From: Odiellus spinosus
Taxonomy: Eukaryota; Arthropoda; Arachnida; Opiliones; Phalangiidae
Assembly (NCBI GenBank): GCA_963920705.1
Contig: CAWUCO010000268.1
Span: 434,001 to 498,000 of the forward strand
Direction: 5' to 3'
Length of the DNA stretch: 64,000 bases
Both the position numbers and the translations under genes were made by a program. Under the pieces are notes generated by a model that saw only the letters and a list, made by a program, of their open reading frames with translations, searched no databases and was not told the DNA's origin. Shown here in pieces: positions 1 to 59,339 of this stretch (the first letter of the stretch is position 1; each line of letters starts with the position of its first letter).

Positions 1-637
1 ACGGATTTTTGAAAACTCTTATTATTTAGACTGTCCATTAATTGCTCTTTCGAATGACTTTGGTTTTGTCTAAATTGCAAAATTGTGACAAATATAAAAT
101 TGGTTAAAATAAAGCAAAAACACTTAAAAATCCAAGATTATTGGATTCAAATGGACACAAAACTTTTGATTTTTAAGCGATTTAGACAAAATTAAGACCA
201 CTCGAAAGAGCAAATATTGGTCTATCTAAAAAACAAGAGTTTTGGAAAATCCGTTGAAAAACATGGAAAATATGGACAATTCAAAAAACATCTAATATCA
301 AAAAGCGAATTTTGAAAATCTGAAATTTGACTATTTTGATATTCTATGATTTCTTGAATTGGCCATATTTTTCTTGTTTTTCCACGGATTTTTGAAAACT
401 CTTATTATTTAGACTGTCCATTAATTGCTCTTTCGAATGACTTTGGTTTTGTCTAAATTGCAAAATTGTGACAAATATAAAATTGGTTAAAATTAAGCAA
501 AAACACTTAAAAATCCAAGATTATTGGATTCAAATGGACACAAAACTTTTGATTTTTAAGCGATTTAGACAAAATTAAGACCACTCGAAAGAGCAAATAT
601 TGGTCTATCTGAAAATCAAGAGTTTTGGAAAATCCGT
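1..637 (-). repeat. Array block 1, (-) orientation
   Basis: About 1.7 monomers, opening inside arm A at the window edge. Near 382 one copy reads TTTTTCCACGG instead of TTTTTCAACGG. The block ends in arm B, where the first switch occurs. Confidence 0.92.
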
Positions 638-646
638 TGAAAAACA
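629..646. other. Orientation switch 1, (-) to (+), B to B
   Basis: Arm B diagnostic bases (TTTTGG) end at 628 and the opposite-polarity arm A connector (AAGAAAAATATGGCC) begins at 647. The 18 bases between are identical in both arms. This is the only B-B switch that uses the left copy of the stretch, so its whole connector is in (+) polarity. Confidence 0.88.
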
Positions 647-1046
647 AGAAAAATATGGCCAATTCAAGAAACCATACAATATCAAAATAGTCAAATTTCA
701 GATTTTAAAAATTCGCTTTTTGATATTAGATGCTTTTTGAATTGTCCATATTTTCCATGTTTTTCAACGGATTTCCCAAAACTCTTGTTTTTTAGATAGA
801 CCAATATTTGCTCTTTCGACTGCTCTTAATTTTGTCTATATCGCTTAAAAATCAAAACTTTTGTGTCCATTTTAATCCAATAATCTTGGATTTTTAAGTG
901 TTTTTGCTTAATTTTAACCAATTTTATATTTGTCACAATTTTGCAATTTAGACAAAACCAAAGTCATTCGAAAGAGCAATTAATGGACAGTCTAAATAAT
1001 AAGAGTTTTCAAAAATCCGTTGAAAAACAAGAAAAATATGGCCAAT
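638..1046 (+). repeat. Array block 2, (+) orientation
   Basis: About one monomer. Arm B here has private changes not noticed elsewhere: GGATTTCCCAAAAC near 770, TCGACTGCTCTTA near 816 and AAAACTTTTG near 855. Confidence 0.92.
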
Positions 1047-1050
1047 TCAA
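1043..1050. other. Orientation switch 2, (+) to (-), A to A
   Basis: The arm A marker GGCC ends at 1042 and the opposite-polarity connector AAAACATCTAAT starts at 1051. CAATTCAA lies between. The same fused text recurs at switches 6, 8, 10 and 16. Confidence 0.9.
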
Positions 1051-1533
1051 AAAACATCTAATATCAAAAAGCGAATTTTTAAAATCTGAAATTTGACTAT
1101 TTTGATATTGTATGATTTCTTGAATTGGCCATATTTTTCTTGTTTTTCAACGGATTTTTGAAAACTCTTGTTATTTAGACTGTCCATTAATTGCTCTTTC
1201 GAATGACTTTGGTTTTGTCTAAATTGCAAAATTGTGACAAATATAAAATTGGTTAAAATAAAGCAAAAACACTTAAAAATCCAAGATTATTGGATTCAAA
1301 TGGACACAAAACTTTTTATTTTTAAGCGATTTAGACAAAATTAAGACCACTCGAAAGAGCAAATATTGGTCTATCTGAAAATCAAGAGTTTTGGAAAATC
1401 CGTTGAAAAACATGGAAAATATGGACAATTCAAAAAACATCTAATATCAAAAAGCGAATTTTGAAAATCTGAAATTTGACTATTTTGATATTGTATGATT
1501 TCTTGAATTTGCCATATTTTTCTTCTTTTTCAA
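1047..1533 (-). repeat. Array block 3, (-) orientation
   Basis: About 1.3 monomers. It contains GAATTTGCCATA near 1508, a private variant of GAATTGGCCATA. Confidence 0.92.
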
Positions 1534-1541
1534 CGGATTTT
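1526..1541. other. Orientation switch 3, (-) to (+), B to B, private C class
   Basis: Connector text TATTTTTCTTC leads into TTTTTCAACGGATTTT, then arm B text CCAAAACTC starts at 1542. The C at 1525 replaces the usual G and marks a family of five switches (3, 5, 11, 13, 15). Confidence 0.9.
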
Positions 1542-1889
1542 CCAAAACTCTTGATTTTCAGATAGACCAATATTTGCTCTTTCGAGTGGTCTTAATTTTG
1601 TCTAAATCGCTTAAAAATCAAAAGTTTTGTGTCCATTTGAATCCAATAATCTTGGATTTTTAAGTGTTTTTGCTTAATTTTAACCAATTTTATAATTGTC
1701 ACAATTTTGCAATTTAGACAAAACCAAAGTCATTCGAAAGAGCAATTAATGGACAGTCTAAATAACAAGAGTTTTCAAAAATCCGTTGAAAAACAAGAAA
1801 AATATGGCCAATTCAAGAAATCATACAATATCAAAATAGTCAAATTTCAGATTTTAAAAATTCGCTTTTTGATATTAGATGTTTTTTGA
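1534..1889 (+). repeat. Array block 4, (+) orientation
   Basis: Just under one monomer, holding one arm B, spacer and arm A, then a connector in (+) polarity. Confidence 0.92.
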
Positions 1890-1893
1890 ATTG
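1886..1893. other. Orientation switch 4, (+) to (-), A to A, mirror site
   Basis: Connector text GATGTTTTT (B-side type) passes through TTGAATTG into GGCCATATTTTTCTTG (A-side type). This is the mirror copy of switch stretch 2 and the only switch in the window using it. Confidence 0.88.
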
Positions 1894-2299
1894 GCCATAT
1901 TTTTCTTGTTTTTCAACGGATTTTTGAAAACTCTTATTATTTAGACTGTCCATTAATTGCTCTTTCGAATGACTTTGGTTTTGTCTAAATTGCAAAATTG
2001 TGACCAATATAAAATTGGTTAAAATTAAGCAAAAACACTTAAAAATCCAAGATTATTGGATTCAAATGGACACAAAACTTTTGATTTTTAAGCGATTTAG
2101 ACAAAATTAAGACCACTCGATAGAGCAAATATTGGTCTATCTAAAAAACAAGATTTTTGGAAAATCCGTTGAAAAACATGGAAAATATGGACAATTCAAA
2201 AAACATCTAATATCAAAAAGCGAATTTTGAAAATCTGAAATTTGACTATTTTGATATTGTATGATTTCTTGAATTGGCCATATTTTTCTTCTTTTTCAA
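1890..2299 (-). repeat. Array block 5, (-) orientation
   Basis: About one monomer, with GACCAATAT near 2002 and ACTCGATAGAG near 2116 as local variants. Confidence 0.92.
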
Positions 2300-2307
2300 C
2301 GGATTTT
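2292..2307. other. Orientation switch 5, (-) to (+), B to B, private C class
   Basis: Same text as switch 3: TATTTTTCTTC into TTTTTCAACGGATTTT, then CCAAAACTC from 2308. The diagnostic C is at 2291. Confidence 0.9.
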
Positions 2308-3343
2308 CCAAAACTCTTGATTTTCAGATAGACCAATATTTGCTCTTTCGAGTGGTCTTAATTTTGTCTAAATCGCTTAAAAATCAAAAGTTTTGTGTCC
2401 ATTTTAATCCAATAATCTTGGATTTTTAAGCGTTTTTGCTTAATTTTAACCAATTTTATATTTGTCACAATTTTGCAATTTAGTCAAAACCAAAGTCATT
2501 CGAAAGAGCAATTAATGGACAGTCTAAATAATAAGAGTTTTCAAAAATCCGTTGAAAAACAAGAAAAATATGGCCAATTCAAGAAATCATAGAATATCTA
2601 AATAGTCAAATTTCAGATTTTCAAAATTCGCTTTTTGATATTAGATGCTTTTTGAATTGTCCATATTTTCCATGTTTTTCAACGGATTTTCCAAAACTCT
2701 TGATTTTTAGATAGACCAATATTTGCTTTTTCGAATGGTCTTAATTTTGTCTAAATCGCTTAAAAATCAAAAGTTTTGTGTCCATTTGAATCCAATAATC
2801 TTGGATTTTTAAGTGTTTTTGCTTTATTTTAACCAATTTTATATTTGTCACGTCTTGGCAATTTAGACAAAACCAAAGTCATTCGAAAGAGCAATTAATG
2901 GACAGTCTAAATAATAAGAGTTTTCAAAAATCCGTTGAAAAACAAGAAAAATATGGCCAATTCAAGAAATCATACAATATCAAAATAGTCAAATTTCAGA
3001 TTTTAAAAATTCGCTTTTTGATATTAGATGTTTTTTGAATTGTCCATATTTTCCATGTTTTTCAACGGATTTTCCAAAACTCTTGATTTTCAGATAGACC
3101 AATATTAGCTCTTTCGAGTGGTCTTAATTTTGTCTAACTCGCTTAAAAATCAAAAGTTTTGTGTCCATTTGAATCCTATAATCTTGGATTTTTAAGTGTT
3201 TTTGCTTTATTTTAACCAATTTTATATTTGTCACAATTTTGCAATTTAGAAAAAACAAAGTCATTCGAAAGAGCAATTAATGGACAGTCTAAATAATAAG
3301 AGTTTTCAAAAATCCGTTGAAAAACAAGAAAAATATGGCCAAT
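2300..3343 (+). repeat. Array block 6, (+) orientation
   Basis: About 2.7 monomers. Includes the rare spacer/arm variant CACGTCTTGGCAATTT near 2849, which recurs at 36161 (+) and, inverted, at 50591 (-). Confidence 0.92.
2849..2864 (+). repeat. Rare monomer variant ACGTCTTGGC, copy 1
   Basis: CACGTCTTGGCAATTT replaces the usual CACAATTTTGCAATTT, with four clustered base changes. I find it in three monomers only, in both orientations, so it marks shared ancestry across more than 30 kb. Confidence 0.85.
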
Positions 3344-3347
3344 TCAA
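3340..3347. other. Orientation switch 6, (+) to (-), A to A
   Basis: GGC then CAATTCAA then AAAACATCTAAT, identical to switch 2 and followed by the same GCGAATTTTTAAAATC form of the centre. Confidence 0.9.
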
Positions 3348-4596
3348 AAAACATCTAATATCAAAAAGCGAATTTTTAAAATCTGAAATTTGACTATTTT
3401 GATATTCTATGATTTCTTGAATTGGCCATATTTTTCTTGTTTTTCAACGGATTTTTGAAAACTCTTATTATTTAGACTGTCCATTAATTGCTCTTTCGAA
3501 TGACTTTGGTTTTGTCTAAATTGCAAAATTGTGACAAATATAAAATTGGTTAAAATAAAGCAAAAACACTTAAAAATCCAAGATTATTGGATTCAAATGG
3601 ACACAAAACTTTTGATTTTTAAGCGATTTAGACAAAATTAAGACCACTCGAAAGAGCAAATATTGGTCTATCTAAAAAACAAGAGTTTTGGAAAATCCAT
3701 TGAAAAACATGGAAAATATGGACAATTCAAAAAACATCTAATATCAAAAAGCGAATTTTGAAAATCTGAAATTTGACTATTTTGATATTCTATGATTTCT
3801 TGAATTGGCCATATTTTTCTTGTTTTTCAACGGATTTTTGAAAACTCTTATTATTTAGACTGTCCATTAATTGCTCTTTCGAATGACTTTGGTTTTGTCT
3901 AAATTGCAAAATTGTGACAAATATAAAATTGGTTAAAATAAAGCAAAAACACTTAAAAATCCAAGATTATTGGATTCAAATGGACACAAAACTTTTGATT
4001 TTTAAGCGATTTAGACAAAATTAAGACCACTCGAAAGAGCAAATATTGGTCTATCTTAAAAAACAAGAGTTTTGGAAAATCCGTTGAAAAACATGGAAAA
4101 TATGGACAATTCAAAAAGCATCTAATATCAAAAAGCGAATTTTTAAAATCTGAAATTTGACTATTTTGATATTGTATGATTTCTTGAATTTTCCATATTT
4201 TTCTTGTTTTTCAACGGATTTTTGAAAACTCTTATTATTTAGACAGTCCATTAATTGCTCTTTCGAATGACTTTGGTTTTGTCTAAATTGCAAAATTGTG
4301 ACCAATATAAAATTGGTTAAAATTAAGCAAAAACACTTAAAAATCCAAGATTATTGGATTCAAATGGACACAAAACTTTTGATGTTTAAGCGATTTAGAC
4401 AAAATTAAGACCACTCGAAAGAGCAAATATTGGTCTATCTAAAAAACAAGAAGTTTGGAAAATCCGTTGAAAAACATGGAAAATATGGACAATTCAAAAA
4501 GCATCTAATATCAAAAAGCGAATTTTTAAAATCTGAAATTTGACTATTTTGATATTGTATGATTTCTTGAATTGGCCATATTTTTCTTGTTTTTCA
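3344..4596 (-). repeat. Array block 7, (-) orientation
   Basis: About 3.3 monomers. Private variants include GATGTTTAAG near 4381 and ACAAGAAGTTTGG near 4446. Confidence 0.92.
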
Positions 4597-4605
4597 ACGG
4601 ATTTT
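4588..4605. other. Orientation switch 7, (-) to (+), B to B, G class
   Basis: Connector CTTG keeps the normal G, then TGTTTTTCAACGGATTTT passes into arm B CCAAAACTC at 4606. It shares this text with switches 9 and 17. Confidence 0.9.
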
Positions 4606-6408
4606 CCAAAACTCTTGATTTTCAGATAGACCAATATTTGCTCTTTCGAGTGGTCTTAATTTTGTCTAAATCGCTTAAAAATCAAAAGTTTTGTGTCCAT
4701 TTGAATCCAATAATCTTGGATTTTTAAGTGTTTTTGCTTAATTTTAACCAATTTTATAATTGTCACAATTTTGCAATTTAGACAAAACCAAAGTCATTCG
4801 AAAGAGCAATTAATGGACAGTCTAAATAATAAGAGTTTTCAAAAATCCGTTGAAAAACAAGAAAAATATGGCCAATTCAAGAAATCATAGAATATCAAAA
4901 TAGTCAAATTTCAGATTTTCAAAATTCGCTTTTTGATATTAGATGCTTTTTGAATTGTCCATATTTTCCATGTTTTTCAACGGATTTTCCAAAACTCTTG
5001 TTTTTTAGATAGACCAATATTTGCTCTTTCGAGTGGTGTTAATTTTGTCTAAATCGCTTAAAAATCAAAAGTTTTGTGTCCATTTGAATCCAATAATCTT
5101 GGATTTTTAAGCGTTTTTGCTTAATTTTAACCAATTTTATATTGGTCACAATTTTGCAATTTAGACAAAACCAAAGTCATTCGAAAGAGCAATTAATGGA
5201 CAGTCTAAATAATAAGAGTTTTCAAAAATCCGTTGAAAAACAAGAAAAATATGGCCAATTCAATAAATCATACAATATCAAAATAGTCAAATTTCAGATT
5301 TTAAAAATTCGCTTTTTGATATTAGATGTTTTTTGAATTGTCCATATTTTCCATGTTTTTCAACGGATTTTCCAAAACTCTTGATTTTCAGATAGACCAA
5401 TATTTGCTCTTTCGAGTGGTCTTAATTTTGTCTAAATCGCTTAAAAATCAAAAGTTTTGTGACCATTTTAATCCAATAATCTTGGATTTTTAAGTGTTTT
5501 TGCTTAATTTTAACCAATTTTATATTTGTCACAATTTTGCAATTTAGACAAAACCAAAGTCATTCGAAAGAGCAATTAATGGACAGTCTAAATAACAAGA
5601 GTTTTCAAAAATCCGTTGAAAAACAAGAAAAATATGGCCAATTCAAGAAATCATACAATATCAAAATAGTCAAATTTCAGATTTTAAAAATTCGCTTTTT
5701 GATATTAGATGTTTTTTGAATTGTCCATATTTTCCATGTTTTTCAACGGATTTTCCAAAACTCTTGTTTTTTAGATAGACCAATATTTGATCTTTCGAGT
5801 GGTGTTAATTTTGTCTAAATCGCTTAAAAATCAAAAGTTTTGTGTCCATTTGAATCCAATAATCTTGGATTTTTAAGCGTTTTTGCTTAATTTTAACCAA
5901 TTTTATATTGGTCACAATTTTGCAATTTAGACAAAACCAAAGTCATTCGAAAGAGCAATTAATGGACAGTCTAAATAATAAGAGTTTTCAAAAATCCGTT
6001 GAAAAACAAGAAAAATATGGCCAATTCAAGAAATCATACAATATCAAAATAGTCAAATTTCAGATTTTAAAAATTCGCTTTTTGATATTAGATGTTTTTT
6101 GAATTGTCCATATTTTCCATGTTTTTCAACGGATTTTCCAAAACTCTTGATTTTCAGATAGACCAATATTTGCTCTTTCGAGTGGTCTTAATTTTGTCTA
6201 AATCGCTTAAAAATCAAAAGTTTTGTGTCCATTTGAATCCTATAATCTTGGATTTTTAAGTGTTTTTGCTTTATTTTAACCAATTTTATATTTGTCACAA
6301 TTTTGCAATTTAGACAAAACCAAAGTCATTCGAAAGAGCAATTAATGGACAGTCTAAATAATAAGAGTTTTCAAAAATCCGTTGAAAAACAAGAAAAATA
6401 TGGCCAAT
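4597..6408 (+). repeat. Array block 8, (+) orientation
   Basis: About 4.7 monomers. Arm A copies alternate between AATAATAAGAG and AATAACAAGAG. TTTGATCTTTCG near 5788 recurs at 7319, so neighbouring (+) blocks share monomers at about 1.53-kb spacing. Confidence 0.92.
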
Positions 6409-6412
6409 TCAA
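6405..6412. other. Orientation switch 8, (+) to (-), A to A
   Basis: GGC then CAATTCAA then AAAACATCTAAT, same form as switches 2, 6, 10 and 16. Confidence 0.9.
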
Positions 6413-6894
6413 AAAACATCTAATATAAAAAAGCGAATTTTTAAAATCTGAAATTTGACTATTTTGATATTGTATGGTTTCTTGAATTGGCCATATTTTT
6501 CTTGTTTTTCAACGGATTTTTGAAAACTCTTATTATTTAGACTGTCCATTAATTGCTCTTTCGAATGACTTTGGTTTTGTCTAAATTGCAAAAGTGTGAC
6601 AAATATAAAATTGGTTAAAATAAAGCAAAAACACTTAAAAATCCAAGATTATTGGATTAAAATGGACACAAAACTTTTGATTTTTAAGCGATATAGACAA
6701 AATTAAGACCACTCGAATGAGCAAATATTGGTCTATCTAAAAAACAAGAGTTTTGGAAAATCCGTTGAAAAACATGGAAAATATGGACAATTCACAAAGC
6801 ATCTAATATCAAAAAGCGAATTTCTAAAATCTGAAATTTGCCTATTTTGATATTGTATGGTTTCTTGAATTGGCCATATTTTTCTTGTTTTTCA
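6409..6894 (-). repeat. Array block 9, (-) orientation
   Basis: About 1.3 monomers, with private ACTCGAATGAGC near 6712 and AATTTGCCTATTTTG near 6834. Confidence 0.92.
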
Positions 6895-6903
6895 ACGGAT
6901 TTT
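6886..6903. other. Orientation switch 9, (-) to (+), B to B, G class
   Basis: TGTTTTTCAACGGATTTT joins an A-side connector (CTTG form) to arm B CCAAAACTC at 6904. Confidence 0.9.
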
Positions 6904-8323
6904 CCAAAACTCTTGATTTTCATATAGACCAATATTTGCTCTTTCGAGTGGTCTTAATTTTGTCTAAATCGCTTAAAAATCAAAAGTTTTGTGTCCATTT
7001 GAATCCAATAATCTTGGATTTTTAAGTGTTTTTGCTTAATTTTAACCAATTTTATATTTGTCACAATTTTGCAATTTAGACAAAACCAAAGTCATTCGAA
7101 AGACCAATTAATGGACAGTCTAAATAATAAGAGTTTTCAAAAATCCGTTGAAAAACAAGAAAAATATGGCCAATTCAAGAAATCATACAATATCAAAATA
7201 GTCAAATTTCAGATTTTAAAAATTCGCTTTTTGATATTAGATGTTTTTTGAATTGTCCATATTTTCCATGTTTTTCAACGGATTTTCCAAAACTCTTGTT
7301 TTTTAGATAGACCAATATTTGATCTTTCGAGTGGTGTTAATTTTGTCTAAATCGCTTAAAAATCAAAAGTTTTGTGTCCATTTGAATCCAATAATCTTGG
7401 ATTTTTAAGCGTTTTTGCTTAATTTTAACCAATTTTATATTGGTCACAATTTTGCAATTTAGACAAAACCAAAGTCATTCGAAAGAGCAATTAATGGACA
7501 GTCTAAATAATAAGAGTTTTCAAAAATCCGTTGAAAAACAAGAAAAATATGGCCAATTCAAGAAATCATACAATATCAAAATAGTCAAATTTCAGATTTT
7601 AAAAATTCGCTTTTTGATATTAGATGTTTTTTGAATTGTCCATATTTTCCATGTTTTTCAACGGATTTTCCAAAACTCTTGATTTTCAGATAGACCAATA
7701 TTTGCTCTTTCGAGTGGTCTTAATTTTGTCTAAATCGCTTAAAAATCAAAAGTTTTGTGTCCATTTTAATCCAATAATCTTGGATTTTTAAGTGTTTTTG
7801 CTTAATTTTAACCAATTTTATATTTGTCACAATTTTGCAATTTAGTCAAAACCAAAGTCATTCGAAAGAGCAATTAATGGACAGTCTAAATAATAAGAGT
7901 TTTCAAAAATCCGTTGAAAAACAAGAAAAATATGGCCAATTCAAGAAATCATAGAATATCTAAATAGTCAAATTTCAGATTTTCAAAATTCGCTTTTTGA
8001 TATTAGATGCTTTTTGAATTGTCCATATTTTCCATGTTTTTCAACGGATTTTCCAAAACTCTTGTTTTTTAGATAGACCAATATTTGCTCTTTCGAGTGG
8101 TCTTAATTTTGTCTATATCGCTTAAAAATCAAAAGTTTTGTGTCCATTTTAATACAATAATCTTCGATTTTTAAGTGTTTTTGCTTAATTTTAACCAATT
8201 TTATATTTGTCACAATTTTGCAATTTAGACAAAACCAAAGTCATTCGAAAGAGCAATTAATGGACAGTCTAAATAATAAGAGTTTTCAAAAATCCGTTGA
8301 AAAACAAGAAAAATATGGCCAAT
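6895..8323 (+). repeat. Array block 10, (+) orientation
   Basis: About 3.7 monomers. The monomer around 7850-7985 repeats variants seen at 2485-2605 (TTTAGTCAAAACC and ATATCTAAATAG), linking the two (+) blocks. Confidence 0.92.
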
Positions 8324-8327
8324 TCAA
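8320..8327. other. Orientation switch 10, (+) to (-), A to A
   Basis: GGC then CAATTCAA then AAAACATCTAAT. It opens the first long uniform block. Confidence 0.9.
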
Positions 8328-10050
8328 AAAACATCTAATATCAAAAAGCGAATTTTTAAAATCTGAAATTTGACTATTTTGATATTGTATGATTTCTTGA
8401 ATTGGCCATATTTTTCTTGTTTTTCAACGGATTTTTGAAAACTCTTGTTATTTAGACTGTCCATTAATTGCTCTTTCGAATGACTTTGGTTTTGTCTAAA
8501 TTGCAAAATTGTGACAAATATAAAATTGGTTAAAATTAAGCAAAAACGCTTAAAAATCCAAGATAATTGGATTAAAATGGACACAAAACTTTTGATTTTT
8601 AAGCGATTTAGACAAAATTAAGACCACTCGAAAGAGCAAATATTGGTCTACATGAAAATCAAGAGATTTGGAAAATCCGTTGAAAAACATGGAAAATATG
8701 GACAATTCAAAAAACATCTAATATCAAAAAGCGAATTTTTAAAATCTGAAATTTGACTATTTTGATATTGTATGATTTCTTGAATTGGCCATATTTTTCT
8801 TGTTTTTGAACGGATTTTTGAAAACTCTTATTATTTAGACTGTCCATTAATTGCTCTTTCGAATGACTTTGGTTTTGTCTAAATTGCAAAATTGTGACAA
8901 ATATAAAATTGGTTAAAATTAAGCAAAAACGCTTAAAAATCCAAGATTATTGGATTAAAATGGACACAAAACTTTTGATTTTTAAGCGATTTAGACAAAA
9001 TTAAGACCACTCGAAAGAGCAAATATTGGTCTATCTGAAAATCAAGAGCTTTGGAAAATCCGTTGAAAAACATGGAAAATATGGACAATTCAAAAAACAT
9101 CTAATATCAAAATGCGAATTTTGAAAATCTGAAATTTGACTATTTTGATATTCTATGATTTCTTGAATTGGCCATATTTTTCTTGTTTTTCAACGGATTT
9201 TTGAAAACTCTTGTTATTTAGACTGTCCATTAATTGCTCTTTCGAATGACTTTGGTTTTGTCTAAATTGCAAAATTGTGACCAATATAAAATTGGTTAAA
9301 ATTAAGCAAAAACGCTTAAAAATCCAAGATTATTGGATTCAAATGGACACAAAACTTTTGATTTTTAAGCGATTTAGACAAAATTAAGACCACTCGAAAG
9401 AGCAAATATTGGTCTATCTAAAAAACAAGAGTTTTGGAAAATCCGTTGAAAAACATGGAAAATATGGACAATTCAAAAAGCATCTAATATCAAAAAGCGA
9501 ATTTTGAAAATCTGAAATTTGACTATTTTGATATTCTATGATTTCTTGAATTGGCCATATTTTTCTTGTTTTTCAACGGATTTTTGAAAACTCTTATTAT
9601 TTAGACTGTCCATTAATTGCTCTTTCGAATGACTTTGGTTTTGTCTAAATTGCAAAATTGTGACAAATATAAAATTGGTTAAAATTAAGCAAAAACACTT
9701 AAAAATCCAAGATTATTGGATTAAAATGGACACAAAACTTTTGATTTTTAAGCGATTTAGACAAAATTAAGACCACTCGAAAGAGCAAATATTGGTCTAC
9801 ATGAAAATCAAGAGATTTGGAAAATCCGTTGAAAAACGTGGAAAATATGGACAATTCAAAAAACATCTAATATCAAAAAGCGAATTTTGAAAATCTGAAA
9901 TTTGACTATTTTGATATTCTATGATTTCTTGAATTGGCCATATTTTTCTTGTTTTTCAACGGATTTTTGAAAACTCTTATTATTTAAACTGTCCATTAAT
10001 TGCTCTTTCGAATGACTTTGGTTTTGTCTAAATTGCAAAATTGTGACAAA

Positions 10051-12349
10051 TATAAATTTGGTTAAAATTAAGCAAAAACACTTAAAAATCCAAGATTATT
10101 GGATTCAAATGGACACAAAACTTTTGATTTTTAAGCAATTTAGACAAAATTAAGACTACTCGAAAGAGCAAATATTGGTCTATCTAAAAAACAAGAGTTT
10201 TGGAAAATCCGTTGAAAAACATGGAAAATATAGCCAATTCAAAAAACATCTAATATCAAAAAGCGAATTTTGAAAATCTGAAATTTGACTATTTTGATAT
10301 TCTATGATTTCTTGAATTGGCCATATTTTTCTTGTTTTTCAACGGATTTTTGAAAACTCTTATTATTTAGACTGTCCATTAATTGCTCTTTCGAATGACT
10401 TTGGTTTTGTCTAAATTGCAAAATTGTGACAAATATAAAATTGGTTAAAATTAAGCAAAAACGCTTAAAAATCCAAGATTATTGGATTCAAATGCACACA
10501 AAACTTTTGATTTTTAAGCGATTTAGACAAAATTAAGACCACTCGAAAGAGCAAATATTGGTCTACATGAAAATCAAGAGATTTGGAAAATCCGTTGAAA
10601 AACGTGGAAAATATGGACAATTCAAAAAACATCTAATATCAAAAAGCGAATTTTGAAAATCTGAAATTTGACTATTTTGATATTCTATGATTTCTTGAAT
10701 TGGCCATATTTTTCTTGTTTTTCAACGGATTTTTGAAAACTCTTATTATTTAGACTGTCCATTAATTGCTCTTTCGAATGACTTTGGTTTTGTCTATATT
10801 GCAAAATTGTGACCAATATAAAATTGGTTAAAATTAAGCAAAAACGCTTAAAAATCCAAGATTATTGGATTCAAATGCACACAAAACTTTTGATTTTTAA
10901 GCGATTTATACAAAATTAAGACCACTCGAAAGAGAAAATATTGGTCTATCTAAAAAACAAGAGTTTTGGAAAATCCGTTGAAAAACATGGAAAATATAGC
11001 CAATTCAAAAAACATCTAATATCAAAAAGCGAATTTTGAAAATCTGAAATTTGACTATTTTGATATTCTATGATTTCTTGAATTGGCCATATTTTTCTTG
11101 TTTTTCAACGGATTTTTGAAAACTCTTATTATTTAGACTGTCCATTAATTGCTCTTTCGAATGACTTTGGTTTTGTCTAAATTGCAAAATTGTGACAAAT
11201 ATAAAATTGGTTAAAATTAAGCAAAAACGCTTAAAAATCCAAGATTATTGGATTAAAATGGACACAAAACTTTTGATTTTTAAGCGATTTAGACAAAATT
11301 AAGACCACTCGAAAGAGCAAATATTGGTCTATCTGAAAATCAAGAGTTTTGGAAAATACGTTGAAAAACATGGAAAATATGGACAATTCAAAAAACATCT
11401 AATATCAAAAAGCGAATTTTGAAAATCTGAAATTTGACTATTTTGATATTCTATGATTTCTTGAATTGGCCATATTTTTCTTGTTTTTCAACGGACTTTT
11501 GAAAACTCTTATTATTTAGACTGTCCATTAATTGCTCTTTCGAATGACTTTGGTTTTGTCTATATTGCAAAATTGTGACCAATATAAAATTGGTTAAAAT
11601 TAAGCAAAAACGCTTAAAAATCCAAGATTATTGGATTCAAATGCACACAAAACTTTTGATTTTTAAGCGATTTATACAAAATTAAGACCACTCGAAAGAG
11701 AAAATATTGGTCTATCTAAAAAACAAGATTTTTGGAAAATCCGTTGAAAAACATGGAAAATATGGACAATTCAAAAAGCATCTAATATCAAAAAGCGAAT
11801 TTTGAAAATCTGAAATTTGACTATTTTGATATTCTATGATTTCTTGAATTGGCCATATTTTTCTTGTTTTTCAACGGATTTTTGAAAACTCTTATTATTT
11901 AGACTGTCCATTAATTGCTCTTTCGAATGACTTTGGTTTTGTCTAAATTGCAAAATTGTGACAAATATAAAATTGGTTAAAATTAAGCAAAAGCGCTTAA
12001 AAATCCAAGATTATTGGATTCAAATGGACACAAAACTTTTGATTTTTAAGCGATTTAGACAAAATTAAGACCACTCGAAAGAGCAAATATTGGTCTACAT
12101 GAAAATCAAGAGATTTGGAAAATCCGTTGAAAAACGTGGAAAATATGGACAATTCAAAAAACATCTAATATCAAAAAGCGAATTTTGAAAATCTGAAATT
12201 TGACTATTTTGATATTCTATGATTTCTTGAATTGGCCATATTTTTCTTGTTTTTCAACGGATTTTTGAAAACTCTTATTATTTAGACTGTCCATTAATTG
12301 CTCTTTCGAATGACTTTGGTTTTGTCTAAATTGCAAAATTGTGACAAAT
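10051..12349 (-). repeat. Six-monomer spacing of a marked monomer (2298 bp)
   Basis: A monomer with TATAAATTTG, TTTAAGCAATTTAG, GACTACTCG and ATAGCCAATTC together begins its marker at 10051 and again at 12349, exactly six monomers apart. A third copy at 13115 is two monomers further on. Confidence 0.8.
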
Positions 12350-17030: not shown

Positions 17031-17053
17031 GATTTAGACAAAATTAAGACCAC

Positions 17054-17065: not shown

Positions 17066-17097
17066 ATATTGGTCTATCTGAAAATCTAGAGTTTTGG

Positions 17098-48310: not shown

Positions 48311-49842
48311 ATATAAATTTGGTTAAAATTAAGCAAAAACGCTTAAAAATCCAAGATTATTGGATTCAAATGGACACAAAAATTTTGATTTTTAAGCGAT
48401 TTAGACAAAATTAAGACCACTCGAAAGAGCAAATATTGGTCTATCTAAAAAACAAGAGTTTTGGAAAATCAGTTGAAAAACATTGAAAATATGGACAATT
48501 CAAAAAGCATCTAATATCAAAAAGCGAATTTTGAAAATCTGAAATTTGACTATTTTGATATTCTATGATTTCTTGAATTGGCCATATTTTTCTTGTTTTT
48601 CAACGGATTTTTGAAAACTCTTATTATTTAGACTGTCCATTAATTGCTCTTTCGAATGACTTTGGTTTTGTCTAAATTGCAAAATTGTGACAAATATAAA
48701 ATTGGTTAAAATAAAGCAAAAACACTTAAAAATCCAAAATTATTGGATTCAAATGGACACAAAACTTTTGATTTTTAAGCGATTTAGACAAAATTAAGAC
48801 TACTCGAAAGAGCAAATATTGGTCTATCTGAAAATCAAGAGTTTTGGAAAATCCGTTGAAAAACATGGAAAATATGGACAATTCAAAAAACATCTAATAT
48901 CAAAAAGCGAATTTTGAAAATCTGAAATTTGACTATTTTGATATTGTATGATTTCTTGAATTGGCCATATTTTTCTTGTTTTTCAACGGATTTTTGAAAA
49001 CTCTTGTTATTTAGACTGTCCATTAATTGCTCTTTCGAATGACTTTGGTTTTGTCTAAATTGCAAAATTGTGACCAATATAAATTTGGTTAAAATTAAGC
49101 AAAAACGCTTAAAAATCCAAGATTATTGGATTCAAATGGACACAAAAATTTTGATTTTTAAGCGATTTAGACAAAATTAAGACCACTCGAAAGAGCAAAT
49201 ATTGGTCTATCTAAAAAACAAGAGTTTTGGAAAATCAGTTGAAAAACATTGAAAATATGGACAATTCAAAAAGCATCTAATATCAAAAAGCGAATTTTGA
49301 AAATCTGAAATTTGACTATTTTGATATTCTATGATTTCTTGAATTGGCCATATTTTTCTTGTTTTTCAACGGATTTTTGAAAACTCTTATTATTTAGACT
49401 GTCCATTAATTTCTCTTTCGAATGACTTTGGTTTTGTCTAAATTGCAAAATTGTGACAAATATAAAATTGGTTAAAATAAAGCAAAAACACTTAAAAATC
49501 CAAAATTATTGGATTCAAATGGACACAAAACTTTTGATTTTTAAGCGATTTAGACAAAATTAAGACTACTCGAAAGAGCAAATATTGGTCTATCTAAAAA
49601 ACAAGAGTTTTGGAAAATCCGTTGAAAAACATGGAAAATATAGCCAATTCAAAAAACATCTAATATCAAAAAGCGAATTTTTAAAATCTGAAATTTGACT
49701 ATTTTGATATTCTATGATTTCTTGAATTGGCCATATTTTTCTTGTTTTTCAACGGATTTTTGAAAACTCTTATTATTTAGACTGTCCATTAATTGCTCTT
49801 TCGAATGACTTTGGTTTTGTCTAAATTGCAAAATTGTGACAA
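48311..49842 (-). repeat. Two-monomer higher-order repeat, 766 bp x 2
   Basis: ATATAAATTT (48311, 49077), ACACAAAAATTTTG, AAAATCAGTTG and ATCCAAAATTATTGG all recur at 766. Confidence 0.82.
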
Positions 49843-50590
49843 ATATAAAATTGGTTAAAATAAAGCAAAAACGCTTAAAAATCCAAGATTATTGGATTCA
49901 AATGGACACAAAACTTTTGATTTTTAAGCGATTTAGACAAAATTAAGACTACTCGAAAGAGCAAATATTGGTCTATCTAAAAAACAAGAGTTTTGGAAAA
50001 TCCGTTGAAAAACATGGAAAATATGGACAATTCAAAAAGCATCTAATATCAAAAAGCGAATTTTGAAAATCTGAAATTTGACTATTTTGATATTCTATGA
50101 TTTCTTGAATTGGCCATATTTTTCTTGTTTTTCAACGGATTTTTGAAAACTCTTTTTATTTAGACTGTCCATTAATTGCTCTTTCGAATGACTTTGGTTT
50201 AGTCTAAATTGCAAAATTGTGACAAATATAAAATTGGTTAAAATAAAGCAAAAACGCTTAAAAATCCAAGATTATTGGATTAAAATGGACACAAAACTTT
50301 TGATTTTTAAGCGATTTAGACAAAATTAAGACTACTCGAAAGAGCAAATATTGGTCTATCTGAAAATCAAGAGTTTTGGAAAATCCGTTGAAAAACATGG
50401 AAAATATGGACAATTCAAAAAACATCTAATATCAAAAAGCGAATTTTGAAAATCTGAAATTTGACTATTTTGATATTGTATGATTTCTTGAATTGGCCAT
50501 ATTTTTCTTGTTTTTCAACGGATTTTTGAAAACTCTTGTTATTTAGACTGTCCATTAATTGCTCTTTCGAATGACTTTGGTTTTGTCTAA

Positions 50591-50606
50591 ATTGCCAAGA
50601 CGTGAC
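50591..50606 (-). repeat. Rare monomer variant, copy 3, inverted
   Basis: ATTGCCAAGACGTGAC is the reverse complement of the variant at 2849 and 36161. It sits in the (-) block, so the same monomer type is found in both orientations. Confidence 0.85.
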
Positions 50607-52250
50607 AAATATAAAATTGGTTAAAATAGAGCAAAAACACTTAAAAATCCAAGATTATTGGATTCAAATGGACACAAAACTTTTGATTTTTAAGCGATTT
50701 AGACAAAATTAAGACTACTCGAAAGAGCAAATATTGGTCTATCTAAAAAACAAGAGTTTTGGAAAATCCGTTGAAAAACATGGAAAATATAGCCAATTCA
50801 AAAAACATCTAATATCAAAAAGCGAATTTTTAAAATCTGAAATTTGACTATTTTGATATTCTATGATTTCTTGAATTGGCCATATTTTTCTTGTTTTTCA
50901 ACGGATTTTTGAAAACTCTTATTATTTAGACTGTCCATTAATTGCTCTTTCGAATGACTTTGGTTTTGTCTAAATTGCAAAATTGTGACAAATATAAAAT
51001 TGGTTAAAATAAAGCAAAAACGCTTAAAAATCCAAGATTATTGGATTCAAATGGACACAAAACTTTTGATTTTTAAGCGATTTAGACAAATTTAAGACCA
51101 CTCGAAAGAGCAAATATTGGTCTATCTGAAAATCAAGAGTTTTGGAAAATCCGTTGAAAAACATGGAAAATATGGACAATTCAAAAAGCATCTAATATCA
51201 AAAAGCGAATTTTGAAAATCTGAAATTTGACTATTTTGATATTCTATGATTTCTTGAATTGGCCATATTTTTCTTGTTTTTCAACGGATTTTTGAAAACT
51301 CTTATTATTTAGACTGTCCATTAATTGCTCTTTCGAATGACTTTGGTTTTGTTTAAATTGCAAAATTGTGACAAATATAAAATTGGTTAAAATTAAGCAA
51401 AAACGCTTAAAAATCCAAGATTATTGGATTCAAATGGACACAAAACTTTTGATTTTTAAGCGATTTAGACAAAATTAAGACCACTCGAAAGAGTAAATAT
51501 TGGTCTATCTAAAAAACAAGAGTTTTGGAAAATCCCTTGAAAAACATGGAAAATAAGGACAATTCAAAAAACATCTAATATCAAAAAGCGAATTTTGAAA
51601 ATCTGAAATTTGACTATTTTGATATTCTATGATTTCTTGAATTGGCCATATTTTTCTTGTTTTTCAACGGATTTTTGAAAACTCTTATTATTTAGACTGT
51701 CCATTAATTGCTCTTTCGAATGACTTTGGTTTTGTCTAAATTGCAAAATTGTGACAAATATAAAATTGGTTAAAATAAAGCAAAAACACTTAAAAATCCA
51801 AGATTATTGGATTCAAATGGACACAAAACTTTTGCTTTTTAAGCGATTTAGACAAAATTAAGACCACTCGAAAGAGCAAATATTGGTCTATCTAAAAAAC
51901 AAGAGTTTTGGAAAATCCGTTGAAAAACATGGAAAATATAGCCAATTCAAAAAACATCTAATATCAAAAAGCGAATTTTTAAAATCTGAAATTTGACTAT
52001 TTTGATATTGTATGATTTCTTGAATTGGCCATATTTTTCTTGTTTTTCAACGGATTTTTGAAAACTCTTGTTATTTAGACTGTCCATTAATTGCTCTTTC
52101 GAATGACTTTGGTTTTGTCTAAATTGCAAAATTGTGACCAATATAAAATTGGTTAAAATTAAGCAAAAACGCTTAAAAATCCAAGATTATTGGATTCAAA
52201 TGGACACAAAACTTTTGATTTTTAAGCGATTTAGACAAAATTAAGACCAC

Positions 52251-53783
52251 TCGAAAGAACAAATATTGGTCTATCTAAAAAACAACAGTTTTGGAAAATC
52301 CGTTGAAAAACATTGAAAATATGGACAATTCAAAAAGCATCTAATATCAAAAAGCGAATTTTGAAAATCTGAAATTTGACTATTTTGATATTCTATGATT
52401 TCTTGAATTGGCCATATTTTTCTTGTTTTTCAACGGATTTTTGAAAACTCTTATTATTTAGACTGTCCATTAATTGCTCTTTCGAATGACTTTGGTTTTG
52501 TCTAAATTGCAAAATTGTGACAAATATAAAATTGGTTAAAATTAAGGAAAAACGCTTAAAAATCCAAGATTATTGGATTCAAATGGACACAAAACTTTTG
52601 ATTTTTAAGCGATTTAGACAAAATTAAGAAAACTCGAAAGAGCAAATATTGGTCTATCTAAAAAACAAGAGTTTTGGAAAATCCGTTGAAAAACATGGAA
52701 AATATGGACAATTCAAAAAGCATCTAATATCAAAAAGCGAATTTTGAAAATCTGAAATTTGACTATTTTGATATTCTATGATTTCTTGAATTGGCCATAT
52801 TTTTCTTGTTTTTCAACGGATTTTTGAAAACTCTTATTATTTAGACTGTCCATTAATTGCTCTTTCGAATGAGTTTGGTTTTGTCTAAATTGCAAAATTG
52901 TGACAAATATAAAATTGGTTAAAATTAAGGAAAAACGCTTAAAAATCCAAGATTATTGGATTCAAATGGACACAAAACTTTTGATTTTTAAGCGATTTAG
53001 ACAAAATTAAGACCACTCGAAAGAACAAATATTGGTCTATCTAAAAAACAACAGTTTTGGAAAATCCGTTGAAAAACATTGGAAATATGGACAATTCAAA
53101 AAGCATCTAATATCAAAAAGCGAATTTTGAAAATCTGAAATTTGACTATTTTGATATTCTATGATTTCTTGAATTGGCCATATTTTTCTTGTTTTTCAAA
53201 GGATTTTTGAAAACTCTTATTATTTAGACTGTCCATTAATTGCTCTTTCGAATGACTTTGGTTTTGTCTAAATTGCAAAATTGTGACAAATATAAAATTG
53301 GTTAAAATTAAGGAAAAACGCTTAAAAATCCAAGATTATTGGATTCAAATAGACACAAAACTTTTGATTTTTAAGCGATTTAGACAAAATTAAGAAAACT
53401 CGAAAGAGCAAATATTGGTCTATCTAAAAAACAAGAGTTTTGGAAAATCCGTTGAAAAACATGGAAAATATGGACAATTCAAAAAGCATCTAATATCAAA
53501 AAGCGAATTTTGAAAATCTGAAATTTGACTATTTTGATATTCTATGATTTCTTGAATTGGCCATATTTTTCTTGTTTTTCAACGGATTTTTGAAAACTCT
53601 TATTATTTAGACTGTCCATTAATTGCTCTTTCGAATGACTTTGGTTTTGTCTAAATTGCAAAATTGTGACAAATATAAAATTGGTTAAAATTAAGGAAAA
53701 ACGCTTAAAAATCCAAGATTATTGGATTCAAATGGACACAAAACTTTTGATTTTTAAGCGATTTAGACAAAATTAAGAAAACT
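52251..53783 (-). repeat. Two-monomer higher-order repeat, 766 bp, near 52-54 kb
   Basis: TCGAAAGAAC with AACAACAG occurs at 52251 and 53017, and TTAAGAAAACTCG at about 52625 and 53391, both 766 apart. A third TTAAGAAAACTCG one monomer later (about 53774) and four successive AAGGAAAAACGC spacers (52545-53695) show the sub-array also grew by single monomers. Confidence 0.8.
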
Positions 53784-54729
53784 CGAAAGAGCAAATATTG
53801 GTCTATCTAAAAAACAAGAGTTTTGGAAAATCCGTTGAAAAACATGGAAAATATGGACAATTCAAAAAGCATCTAATATCAAAAAGCGAATTTTGAAAAT
53901 CTGAAATTTGACTATTTTGATATTCTATGATTTCTTGAATTGGCCATATTTTTCTTGTTTTTCAACGGATTTTTGAAAACTCTTATTATTTAGACTGTCC
54001 ATTAATTGCTCTTCCGAATGACTTTGGTTTTGTCTAAATTGCAAAATTGTGACATATATAAAATTGGTTAAAATTAAGCAAAAACGCTTAAAAATCCAAG
54101 ATTATTGGATTAAAATGGACACAAAACTTTTGATTTTTAAGCGATTTAGACAAAATTAAGACCACTCGAAAGAGCAAATATTGGTCTATCTGAAAATCAA
54201 GAGTTTTGGAAAATCCGTTGAACAACATGGAAAATATGGACAATTCAAAAAACATCTAATATCAAAAAGCGAATTTTGAAAATCTGAAATTTGACTATTT
54301 TGATATTCTATGATTTCTTGAATTGGCCATATTTTTCTTGTTTTTCAACGGATTTTTGAAAACTCTTATTATTTAGACTGTCCATTAATTGCTCTTTCGA
54401 ATGACTTTGGTTTTGTCTAAATTGCAAAATTGTGACAAATATAAAATTGGTCAAAATTAAGCAAAAACACTTAAAAATCCAAGATTATTGGATTCAAATG
54501 GACACAAAACTTTTGATTTTTAAGCGATTTAGACAAAATTAAGACCACTCGAAAGAGCAAATATTGGGCTATCTAAAAAACAAGAGTTTTGGAAAATCCG
54601 TTGAAAAACATGGAAAATATGGACAATTAAAAAAGCATCTAATATCAAAAAGCGAATTTTGAAAATCTGAAATTTGACTATTTTGATATTGTATGGATTC
54701 TTGAATTGGCCATATTTTTCTTGTTTTTC

Positions 54730-57700
54730 AACGGATTTTTAAAAAATTCTTATTATTTAGACTGTCCATTAATTGCTCTTTCGAATGACTTTGGTTTTGT
54801 CTAAATTGCAAAATTGTGACAAATATAAAATTGGTTAAAATAAAGCAAAAACACTTAAAAATCCAAGATTATTGGATTCAAATGGACACAAAACTTTTGA
54901 TTTTTAAGCGATTTAGACAAAATTAAGACAACTCGAAAGAGCAAATATTGGTCTATCTGAAAATCAAGAGTTTTGGAAAATCCGTTGAAAAACATGGAAA
55001 ATATGGACAGTTCAAAAAACATCTAATATCAAAAAGCGAATTTTGAAAATCTGAAATTTGACTATTTTGATATTCTATGATTTCTTGAATTGGCCATATT
55101 TTTCTTGTTTTTCAATGGATTTTTGAAAACTCTTATTATTTAGACTGTCCATTAATTGCTCTTTCGAATGACTTTGGTTTTGTCTAAATTGCAAAATTGT
55201 GACAAATATAAAATTGGTGAAAATTAAGCAAAAACGCTTAAAAATCCAAGATTATTGGATTCAAATGGACACAAAACTTTTGATTTTTAAGCGATTTAGA
55301 CAAAATTGAGACCACTCGAAAGAGCAAATATTGGTCTATCTAAAAAACAAGAGTTTTGGAAAATCCGTTGAAAAACATGGAAAATATGGACAATTCAAAA
55401 AGCATCTAACATAAAAAAGCGAATTTTGAAAATCTGAAATTTGACTATTTTGATATTCTATGATTTCTTGAATTGGCCATATTTTTCTTGTTTTTCAACG
55501 GATTTTTGAAAACTCTTATTATTTAGACTGTCCATTAATTGCTCTTTCGAATGACTTTGGTTTTGTCTAAATTGCAAAATTGTGACAAATATAAAATTGG
55601 TTAAAATAAAGCAAAAACACTTAAAAATCCAAGATTATTGGATTCAAATGGACACAAAACTTTTGCTTTTTAAGCGATTTAGACAAAATTAAGACCACTC
55701 GAAAGAGCAAATATTGGTCTATCTGAAAATCAAGAGTTTTGGAAAATCCGTTGAAAAACATGGAAAATATGGACAATTCAAAAAGCATCTAATTTCAAAA
55801 AGCGAATTTTGAAAATCTGAAATTTGACTATTTTGATATTCTATGATTTCTTGAATTGGCCATATTTTTCTTGTTTTTCAACGGATTTTTGAAAACTCTT
55901 ATTATTTAGACTGTTCATTAATTTCTCTTTCGAATGACTTTGGTTTTGTCTAAATTGCAAAATTGTGACAAATATAAAATTGGTTAAAATTAAGCAAAAA
56001 CACTTAAAAATCCAAGATTATTGGATTCAAATGGACACAAAACTTTTGATTTTTAAGCGATTTAGACAAAATTAAGACCACTCGAAAGAGCAAATATTGG
56101 TCTATCTGAAAATCAAGAGTTTTGGAAAATCCGTTGAAAAACATTGAAAATATGGACAATTCAAAAAGCATCTAATATCAAAAAGCGAATTTTGAAAATC
56201 TAAAATTTGACTATTTTGATATTCTATGATTTCTTGAATTGGCCATATTTTTCTTGTTTTTCAACGGATTTTTGAAAAATTCTTATTATTTAGACTGTCC
56301 ATTAATTGCTCTTTCGAATGACTTTGGTTTTGTCTAAATTGCAAAATTGTGACAAATATAAAATTGGTTAAAATAAAGCAAAAACACTTAAAAATCCAAG
56401 ATTATTGGATTCAAATGGACACAAAACTTTTGATTTTTAAGCGATTTAGACAAAATTAAGACAACTCGAAAGAGCAAATATTGGTCTATCTGAAAATCAA
56501 GAGTTTTGGAAAATCCGTTGAAAAACATGGAAAATATGGACAATTCAAAAAACATCTAATATCAAAAAGCGAATTTTGAAAATCTGAAATTTGACTATTT
56601 TGATATTCTATGATTTCTTGAATTGGCCATATTTTTCTTGTTTTTCAATGGATTTTTGAAAACTCTTATTATTTAGACTGTCCATTAATTGCTCTTTCGA
56701 ATGACTTTGGTTTTGTCTAAATTGCAAAATTGTGACAAATATAAAATTGGTTAAAATTAAGCAAAAACGCTTAAAAATCCAAGATTATTGGATTCAAATG
56801 GACACAAAACTTTTGATTTTTAAGCGATTTAGACAAAATTGAGACCACTCGAAAGAGCAAATATTGGTCTATCTAAAAAACAAGAGTTTTGGAAAATCCG
56901 TTGAAAAACATGGAAAATATGGACAATTCAAAAAGCATCTAACATAAAAAAGCGAATTTTGAAAATCTGAAATTTGACTATTTTGATATTGTATGGTTTC
57001 TTGAATTGGCCATATTTTTCTTGTTTTTCAACGGATTTTTAAAAAATTCTTATTATTTAGACTGTCCATTAATTGCTCTTTCGAATGACTTTGGTTTTGT
57101 CTAAATTGCAAAATTGTGACAAATATAAAATTGGTTAAAATAAAGCAAAAACACTTAAAAATCCAAGATTATTGGATTCAAATGGACACAAAACTTTTGC
57201 TTTTTAAGCGATTTAGACAAAATTAAGACCACTCGAAAGAGCAAATATTGGTCTATCTGAAAATCAAGAGTTTTGGAAAATCCGTTGAAAAACATGGAAA
57301 ATATGGACAATTCAAAAAGCATCTAATTTCAAAAAGCGAATTTTGAAAATCTGAAATTTGACTATTTTGATATTCTATGATTTCTTGAATTGGCCATATT
57401 TTTCTTGTTTTTCAACGGATTTTTGAAAACTCTTATTATTTAGACTGTTCATTAATTTCTCTTTCGAATGACTTTGGTTTTGTCTAAATTGCAAAATTGT
57501 GACAAATATAAAATTGGTTAAAATTAAGCAAAAACACTTAAAAATCCAAAATTTATTGGATTCAAATGGACACAAAACTTTTGATTTTTAAGCGATTTAG
57601 ACAAAATTAAGACCACTCGAAAGAGCAAATATTGGTCTATCTAAAAAACAACAGTTTTTGAAAATCCGTTGAAAAACATTGAAAATATGGACAATTCAAA

Positions 57701-59000
57701 AAGCATCTAATATCAAAAAGCGAATTTTGAAAATCTAAAATTTGACTATTTTGATATTCTATGATTTCTTGAATTGGCCATATTTTTCTTGTTTTTCAAC
57801 GGATTTTTGAAAACTCTTATTATTTAGACTGTCCATTAATTGCTCTTTCGAATGACTTTGGTTTTGTCTAAATTGCAAAATTAAGACAAATATAAAATTG
57901 GTTAAAATAAAGCAAAAACACTTAAAAATCCAAGATTATTGGATTCAAATGGACACAAAACTTTTGATTTTTAAGCGATTTAGACAAAATTAAGACCACT
58001 CGAAAGAGCAAATATTGGTCTATCTGAAAATCAAGAGTTTTGGAAAATCCGTTGAAAAACATGGAAAATATGGACAATTCAAAAAACATCTAATATCAAA
58101 AAGCGAATTTTGAAAATCTGAAATTTGACTATTTTGATATTCTATGATTTCTTGAATTGGCCATATTTTTCTTGTTTTTCAATGGATTTTTGAAAACTCT
58201 TATTATTTAGACTCCATTAATTTCTCTTTCGAATGACTTTGGTTTTGTCTAAATTGCAAAATTGTGACAAATATAAAATTGGTTAAATTTAAGCAAAAAC
58301 GCTTAAAAATCCAAGATTATTGGATTCAAATGGACACAAAACTTTTGATTTTAAAGCGATTTAGACAAAATTAAGACCACTCGAAAGAGCAAATATTGGT
58401 CTATCTAAAAAACAAGAGTTTTGGAAAATCCGTTGAAAATCATGGAAAATATGGACAATTCAAAAAGCATCTAACATAAAAAAGCGAATTTTGAAAATCT
58501 GAAATTTGACTATTTTGATATTCTATGATTTCTTGAATTGGCCATATTTTTCTTGTTTTTCAACGGATTTTTAAAAAATTCTTATTATTTAGACTGTCCA
58601 TTAATTGCTCTTTCGAATGACTTTGGTTTTGTCTTAATTGCAAAATTGTGACCAATATAAAATTGGTTAAAATTAAGCAAAAACGCTTAAAAATTCAAGA
58701 TTATTGGATTCAAATGGACACAAAACTTTTGATTTTTAAGCGATTTAGACAAAATTAAGACAACTCGAAAGAGCAAATATTGGTCTATCTAAAAAACAAG
58801 AGTTTTGGAAAATCCGTTGAAAAACATGGACAATATGGACAATTCAAAAAACATCTAATATCAAAAAGCGAATTTTGAAAATCTGAAATTTGACTATTTT
58901 GATATTGTATGGTTTCTTGAATTGGCCATATTTTTCTTGTTTTTCAACGGATTTTTAAAAAATTCTTATTATTTAGACTGTCCATTAATTGCTCTTTCGA
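54730..59000 (-). repeat. Four-monomer higher-order repeat, about 1533 bp x 3
   Basis: CAATGGATTTTTG lies at 55113, 56646 and 58180. AACATAAAAAAGCG (about 55408, 56941, 58471), AAATTGAGACC (two copies), TTTTGCTTTTTAAG (about 55664, 57197) and CTGTTCATTAATTTC (55911, 57445) follow the same step. TTTTTAAAAAATTC also recurs, at 54738, 57037, 58570 and 58954, with extra copies that do not fit the step. Confidence 0.82.
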
Positions 59001-59321
59001 ATGACTTTGGTTTTGTCTAAATTGCAAAATTGTGACAAATATAAAATTGGTTAAAATTAAGCAAAAACACTTAGAAATCCAAGATAATTGGATTCAAATG
59101 GACTCAAAACTTTTGATTTTTAAGCGATTTAGACAAAATTAAGACTACTCGAAAGAGCAAATATTGGTCTATCTAAAAAACAAGAGTTTTTAAAAATCCG
59201 TTGAAAAACATGGAAAATATAGCCAATTCAAAAAACATCTAATATCAAAAAGCGAATTTTTAAAATCTGAAATTTGACTATTTTGATATTGTATGATTTC
59301 TTGAATTGGCCATATTTTTCT

Positions 59322-59339
59322 TGTTTTTCAACGGATTTT
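59322..59339. other. Orientation switch 17, (-) to (+), B to B, G class
   Basis: TGTTTTTCAACGGATTTT joins the CTTG connector to arm B CCAAAACTC at 59340. It is the last switch; the array stays (+) to the window end. Confidence 0.9.

Follow-up and report, generated by a model that had tools for sequence, protein, structure and literature searches.

Orientation switches in an inverted-dimer satellite of Odiellus spinosus: shared breakpoints and the probable copying of a few founder junctions

How does a tandem array come to turn around, time and again, at the same places within its repeat unit? The question is raised by a stretch of 64,000 nucleotides from the arachnid Odiellus spinosus (Opiliones; GenBank assembly GCA_963920705.1, contig CAWUCO010000268.1, positions 434,001 to 498,000), hereafter the window, the whole of which (1..64000) is a single AT-rich satellite with a period of 383 bp as delimited by Tandem Repeats Finder. 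The orientation of the array changes 17 times in the window. An initial annotation, made from the sequence alone, had recognized that all these switches occur in arm-identical stretches of the palindrome contained in each monomer, and had inferred that the monomer is its own inversion substrate, through cruciform exchange or fold-back template switching. The pattern is true and was well read; the cause was over-read. It is probable, on balance, that a few inversion crossovers between monomers, each with a short conversion tract, were followed by the spread of the resulting junctions via array turnover.

The monomer and its breakpoints

The G+C content of the satellite is ~27% (0.265-0.272 across the window in 2-kb steps), and there are no Rfam matches to it at gathering scores. 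Monomers were oriented with an asymmetric 26-base anchor in the spacer, with up to 6 mismatches allowed. This search of the window located 167 spacers, 131 in the + and 36 in the - orientation, and 166 palindromes between them, namely, 122 flanked by spacers in the order ++, 27 --, 9 +-, and 8 -+; the 149 palindromes of the first two classes are referred to as ordinary. The dyad of the consensus is at unit position 197 (0-based), and distances from it are denoted k. The consensus arms are ~80% alike at k=35-140, with poor agreement toward the centre and within the spacer, and this comparison confirms that the monomer is an inverted dimer, consisting of a palindrome of ~285 bp and an asymmetric spacer of ~98 bp, as first described. 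The + and - monomers do not represent separate lineages, a possibility rejected on medians of 11-12 differences. Units were compared in a matrix of 165 of the 167 spacer units, with the first and the last omitted; the first 22 units are more diverse than the rest (median of 21 differences). Two spacer-to-spacer distances, at 29617-29988 and 44527-44899, fall short of the period by 12 and 11 bases, respectively.

In ordinary monomers, 30 arm-diagnostic columns separate the left (L) from the right (R) arm. The allele of the other arm is present in fewer than 5% of the 149 ordinary palindromes in 27 of these columns, the exceptions being column 113, where 9.4% of L arms have the R allele, and columns 70 and 126, where the L allele is seen in 30% and 9.4% of R arms, respectively. 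Column 70, at k=85, is a polymorphism common to both arms, unlike most diagnostic columns; for that reason, one mosaic filter made no use of it for right arms. Followed through each of the 17 switches, the columns reveal a hybrid palindrome with one main change of arm type and a small number of isolated columns of the opposite type within a side (for example, in junctions p001 and p154). Every switch is located within the palindrome, and the breakpoints are confined to three stretches that are identical between the arms, at distances of 35-94 bases from a single dyad; the annotation had put them within about 90 bases. The spacings between spacers at the switches (369 and twice 367 for +-, 397 and twice 396 for -+) also agree with one common dyad. 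The division of the switches over the three stretches, nine, six, and two, and their coordinates, from 629 to 59339, stand as originally given, except that the direction labels are reversed, such that the +- switches discussed here are the (-)-to-(+) switches of the annotation.

All nine +- breakpoints lie in the 18-base stretch AAAATCCGTTGAAAAACA, at k=56-73, between the diagnostic sites k=55 and k=74, which is the longest identical run between the consensus arms. On the + strand of the window, they are found at 629..646 (p001, in the 18-bp stretch of the left arm and with mirror polarity), 1524..1541 (p003), 2290..2307 (p005), 4588..4605 (p011), 6886..6903 (p017), 30241..30258 (p078), 31390..31407 (p081), 34070..34087 (p088), and 59322..59339 (p154). 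Six of the eight -+ breakpoints lie in CAATTCAA, at k=35-42, again with + strand coordinates of 1043..1050 (p002), 1886..1893 (p004, with mirror polarity), 3340..3347 (p008), 6405..6412 (p016), 8320..8327 (p021), and 37035..37042 (p096). The other two, 30472..30477 (p079) and 31621..31626 (p082), also on the + strand, are in TCTAAA, at k=89-94, and are copies of each other. Two 12-bp identical runs farther out (k=106-117 and k=128-139) contain none of the 17 breakpoints.

The core of the palindrome is in the + sense in 15 of the 17 junctions (two-sided P 0.0023 if the arms were used equally). The switches are also clustered along the array, with 10 of the 16 gaps between them no longer than 3 monomers, compared with a mean of 4.4 such gaps in random placing (P 0.00055). 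Ten switches are in 1-8548, six are in 29988-37262, and one is at 59 kb, and two switch-free stretches comprise 57 and 58 monomers. Runs between switches, in a window that is part of an array only, range from 1 to 58 monomers, and single inverted monomers occur as runs.

If the nine +- switches were independent and breaks were proportional to identical length, the probability of all nine falling in one stretch would be 4e-7 (0.04 for two switches); if about 12 bp of perfect identity were required, it would be 0.1. Such coincidence of breakpoints speaks for either descent or a requirement for homology, and the two are not fully separable here.

Common descent of the junctions

The location of the 18-base stretch holds for all nine +- switches, but its presumed identity among them does not, and the exception is informative. 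Five of the nine +- junctions (p003, p005, p078, p081, and p088), which form two clusters about 30 kb apart, have C at k=57 within the stretch, a base found in 0 of the 149 ordinary palindromes; the chance of five such bases all landing among the nine +- junctions is 1.6e-7. This changed base, hereafter C57, marks common descent. Junctions p001 and p017 both carry A at k=-137 (2 of the 149 ordinary palindromes) and G at k=30 (9 of 149), despite being of opposite polarity; as mirror images with common rare alleles, they suggest that junctions were turned round after they formed. The three units to the right of p011 differ from those to the right of p017 by 6, 4, and 5 positions, and among 6925 same-orientation triplet pairs, only 39 are as close; p011 and p078 have in common a base present in 1 of the 149 ordinary palindromes.

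Copies of entire junctions are apparent as well. The p079 and p082 junctions are identical, with 0 differences, and are situated inside a three-unit duplication (units 79-81 to units 82-84), and the three units to the right of p081 are copies of those to the right of p078. Among the CAATTCAA junctions, p002 equals p021 over the 341 positions compared, p004 differs from each of these two by 3 positions, and p096 differs from p002 by 3 positions at a distance of 36 kb. As a group, the six CAATTCAA junctions are closer to one another than local composites, that is, junctions assembled independently and at random from neighbouring monomers (mean 4.2 vs 6.7, P 0.0165). The two TCTAAA junctions, having a different breakpoint, were excluded from the composite and pair tests of the -+ class, and the rare alleles private to the two copied pairs are not among the shared alleles listed in the pair test.

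Recent segmental duplication was considered as the source of all the copies and rejected: among collinear copies, defined by no more than 4 differences per unit over at least 3 units, which comprise only units 79-84, 40-58, and 25-33, the first alone contain junctions. The other two are features of the array in their own right. Units 40-58 (~15440-22722) form a higher-order repeat, in which units 40-44 recur at 46-50 and 53-57, and units 45-51 recur at 52-58, the copies differing by 0-3 positions per unit; at 9697-12761, units 25-27 and 31-33 are near-identical three-unit copies, six units apart.

The private base C57, the rare alleles of p001 and p017, the segmental duplication, and the polarity shared by 15 of the 17 junctions together imply fewer founders than 17. 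The nine +- switches are reducible to about four lineages at most, namely, {p003, p005, p078, p081, p088}, {p001, p017}, p011, and p154, and at least half of these switches have the appearance of copies inherited from a single old flip, not of separate events. Among the six CAATTCAA junctions, there may be one lineage or several. The supposition of 17 independent flips, then, runs counter to the shared alleles, the duplication, and the polarity, even if some of the flips may have been separate.

How the array may have turned

That both arms of the palindrome are the likely substrate is supported, with the 18-bp stretch as the longest arm identity. The notion of a monomer that serves as its own inversion substrate survives in this respect and fails in another: a turn of the array cannot come from inversion of the core of one palindrome, hence two palindromes are needed, and inverted cores are found in 0 of the 149 ordinary palindromes. 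In a tandem array, the R arm of one monomer and the L arm of another form a pair of facing inverted repeats. A crossover within such a pair would invert the intervening stretch and leave a hybrid palindrome at each end, one (+-) with a + core, L type on both outer sides, and R inside, and the other (-+) with a + core, R type on both outer sides, and L inside. The polarity predicted for these products is the majority polarity in both classes of junctions. A clean crossover would place both breakpoints in the same stretch; instead, the reciprocal classes occupy neighbouring stretches, and the positions k=43, 53, and 55 are R-type on the exchanged arm in both. A conversion tract of about 12-38 bp, or a parent arm that had been converted previously, would shift the visible breakpoints to the 18-bp stretch and CAATTCAA. 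Many of the 17 junctions would then stem from these founders, which ordinary recombination between full monomers would later have copied, shuffled, and inverted anew. From the hybrids and their breakpoints, C57 in five of the nine +- junctions, the copied pair, and the lack of inverted cores, all of which are directly visible, we infer the crossover with conversion, the number of founders, and the order of events.

A candidate for the converted parent is present in the array. Three palindromes of ordinary orientation, p104, p113, and p116 (after the spacers at 39939, 43381, and 44527, in the region 39939..44898, + strand), have a left arm of the form L|R|L, with an R tract at k=43-55 that is bounded by the 18-bp stretch and CAATTCAA, the exact tract that divides the two main breakpoint stretches. 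When the three columns of this tract are swapped in the consensus, the perfect arm match grows from 18 bp to 39 bp, and both of the observed breakpoint classes would result from a crossover at any point of this longer run.

Several observations weigh against a few converted crossovers spread by copying. With respect to the proposed parent, p104, p113, and p116 show no differences among themselves in the region compared and so probably reflect one event; these monomers could be descended from a -+ junction instead of being its parent; and, when closeness to the -+ junctions is ranked outside the tract, they take only places 11-13 of 149. To account for the TCTAAA pair, a second event or further conversion has to be assumed. 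With respect to descent, the nine +- junctions are not closer to one another than local composites (10.83 vs 10.05, fraction 0.755), nor are the four +- junctions that lack C57 (0.82), and for four of the five C57 junctions, with p081 omitted as a copy, the closeness relative to composites reaches only 0.07. Tests of single pairs fall below 0.05 in 1 of 36 cases for +- (p003-p088, 0.0167) and in 2 of 15 for the -+ junctions of the CAATTCAA type (p002-p021, 0.0053; p002-p096, 0.041), about what chance would give in 51 tests. The T at k=-5 that is common to the six CAATTCAA junctions is also present in 43 of the 149 ordinary palindromes, and the units adjoining most junctions are not near-identical copies of one another. 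Some of the +- lineages, up to about four, along with several of the -+ ones, could be independent uses of the same stretches.

These observations lead to the alternative that survives best, recurrent independent inversion at a hot stretch, whereby several lineages would be separate crossovers drawn to the same arm identity. This is a tentative possibility, and rather an unlikely one. In its favour, all nine +- junctions, including up to four loosely tied lineages, use the longest arm-identical run of 18 bp; the junctions without C57 differ from one another as much as independent composites do; and, given a need for about 12 bp of identity, the probability of nine breakpoints in one run is 0.1. 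Such recurrence is difficult to reconcile with a private base in five of the nine +- junctions and with a polarity of 15 to 2, and the -+ switches use an 8-bp run (six of eight) and a 6-bp run (two of eight), both of which would be forbidden under a requirement for at least 10 bp. That the 18-bp stretch, or its 39-bp L|R|L form, is a recurrent inversion hotspot used by several independent lineages seems doubtful to us; if this were true, the sequence of the monomer itself would fix where the array turns, and single inverted monomers would arise repeatedly.

Fold-back template switching, or snap-back copying at the palindrome, would produce inverted duplications, and under this model, a junction is at first flanked by mirror copies. 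The single strand of one ordinary palindrome is indeed predicted to form a hairpin (minimum free energy of -74.7 kcal/mol, z -13.2), as is that of one junction (-122.7 kcal/mol), and one rare base is found on both outer arms of p078; the predicted stability of single-strand hairpins says nothing, however, about events in the cell. No mirror signal is detectable at the junctions. Two outer arms from one junction show no greater similarity than arms paired by permutation (fraction 0.90 for +- and 0.94 for -+), and in a permutation test of 87 mirror-placed unit pairs against 400 non-mirror pairs of the same flanks, the means were 7.43 and 7.53 differences, respectively, in 237 columns (P 0.45); as the junction units contain hybrid arms, the hybrid parts of units were left out of the latter test. 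Old fold-back events could have lost their mirror signal. Fold-back is reported to generate large inverted duplications (PMC3907307). The mirror copies to be expected under the fold-back model have left no trace in this array. We consider this explanation, one of the two causes originally proposed, improbable.

Satellite arrays are hard to assemble, and the switches might have been created by the assembler; this seems very improbable, given that the junctions are hybrids at three stretches, that one group of them has a private base, and that they differ from one another by up to 21 of ~380 bases. Site-specific inversion, which involves a recombinase gene and defined sites, was compared as well; the window is satellite throughout, and a recombinase could be encoded elsewhere. 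Finally, cruciform exchange within a single monomer, the other cause first proposed, is scarcely credible: the palindrome could extrude, and its predicted single-strand hairpins are stable, but reciprocal exchange would flip the core only and keep the direction of the array, and not one inverted core is found among the ordinary palindromes.

Other satellites and the meaning of conserved inversion sites

No described satellite with this sequence was found in the open-access literature, which lacks most subscription papers. Pieces of the window, 3.0 and 2.7 kb long, had no megablast match in phage and plasmid collections, and a 23-base pattern from the monomer had 0 matches in viral contigs. The 18-base stretch occurs in 6 viral and 44 prokaryote sequences, with one match each, which by our own estimate is about the number expected by chance for an AT-rich 18-mer in that much DNA. 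The subtelomeric satellite HSR1 of hop, the only 383-bp satellite found in that literature, has the same monomer length and was characterized via KpnI digestion (PMC12406709); as an identity for the present satellite it was rejected, the KpnI site GGTACC occurring 0 times in the 64 kb, in what is a comparison of sequences by description only.

The nearest known case is TmSat2 of the beetle Tribolium madens (Veseljak et al. 2026, PMC13081366), and the Odiellus spinosus array is of the same kind in another satellite, with the breakpoints mapped more finely. According to that article, macro-dyad satellite arrays were previously documented only in Tribolium; the one further publication found to contain the term macro-dyad has it in its references alone. 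The TmSat2 monomer is 704 bp long, with an imperfect internal palindrome of ~600 bp, and is made up of seven subunits of 59-113 bp. Across 6428 sites, conservation of the INV_2 inversion segment of TmSat2 amounts to 98.2%, and 12 positions distinguish it from the canonical subunits. The authors of the article suggest that similar subunits recombined ectopically, present supporting evidence from raw reads, and consider functional meaning as well as spread and exchange as reasons for the conservation of inversion sites (PMC13081366).

The two systems share a large palindrome in the monomer, changes of orientation along the array, and conserved inversion sites distinct from the canonical units. 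In Odiellus spinosus, the conservation of inversion sites amounts to three stretches for 17 switches, with C57 in five of the nine +- junctions, in a small sample. There are also differences, compared by description. Here the period is 383 bp, and an inverted dimer with a palindrome of ~285 bp and a spacer takes the place of seven subunits; and one satellite extends across the 64 kb of this window, whereas TmSat2 is a cassette that fixed transition zones join to another, major satellite. The T. madens type consists mostly of two long subarrays of similar length; in the window, which is part of an array only, the runs range from 1 to 58 monomers, with 131 + and 36 - spacers. Unlike in TmSat2, there are inverted runs of a single monomer, the breakpoints can be placed to the base, and the offset between reciprocal products is visible. 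The INV_1a and INV_1b junctions of TmSat1, as presented in the same article (PMC13081366), resemble those described here in that conserved junction sequences are reused, there over thousands of switches; they differ in having a degenerate subunit at the site, in contrast to the plain hybrid of two arms seen in this array. Long inverted repeats within the monomer, as in the present satellite, are also known from Trichogramma brassicae, with a 385-bp satellite containing 80-bp inverted repeats, and from Tribolium brevicornis, with a 1061-bp satellite containing inverted segments of ~470 bp (both cited in PMC13081366); these two are likewise compared by description, and the citing passages state no switching of orientation.

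Taken together, the 30 diagnostic columns allow the switches to be located with a precision of 6-18 bases and grouped by lineage, and so make it possible to distinguish inversion junctions that were inherited from those newly formed. This bears on Tribolium, where the conserved inversion sites have been read as possibly functional, with spread and exchange as the alternative. In Odiellus spinosus, the conservation of inversion sites is explained, at least in part, by the copying of founders, and the array should be useful as a test bed for the origin and spread of inversion junctions in satellites.

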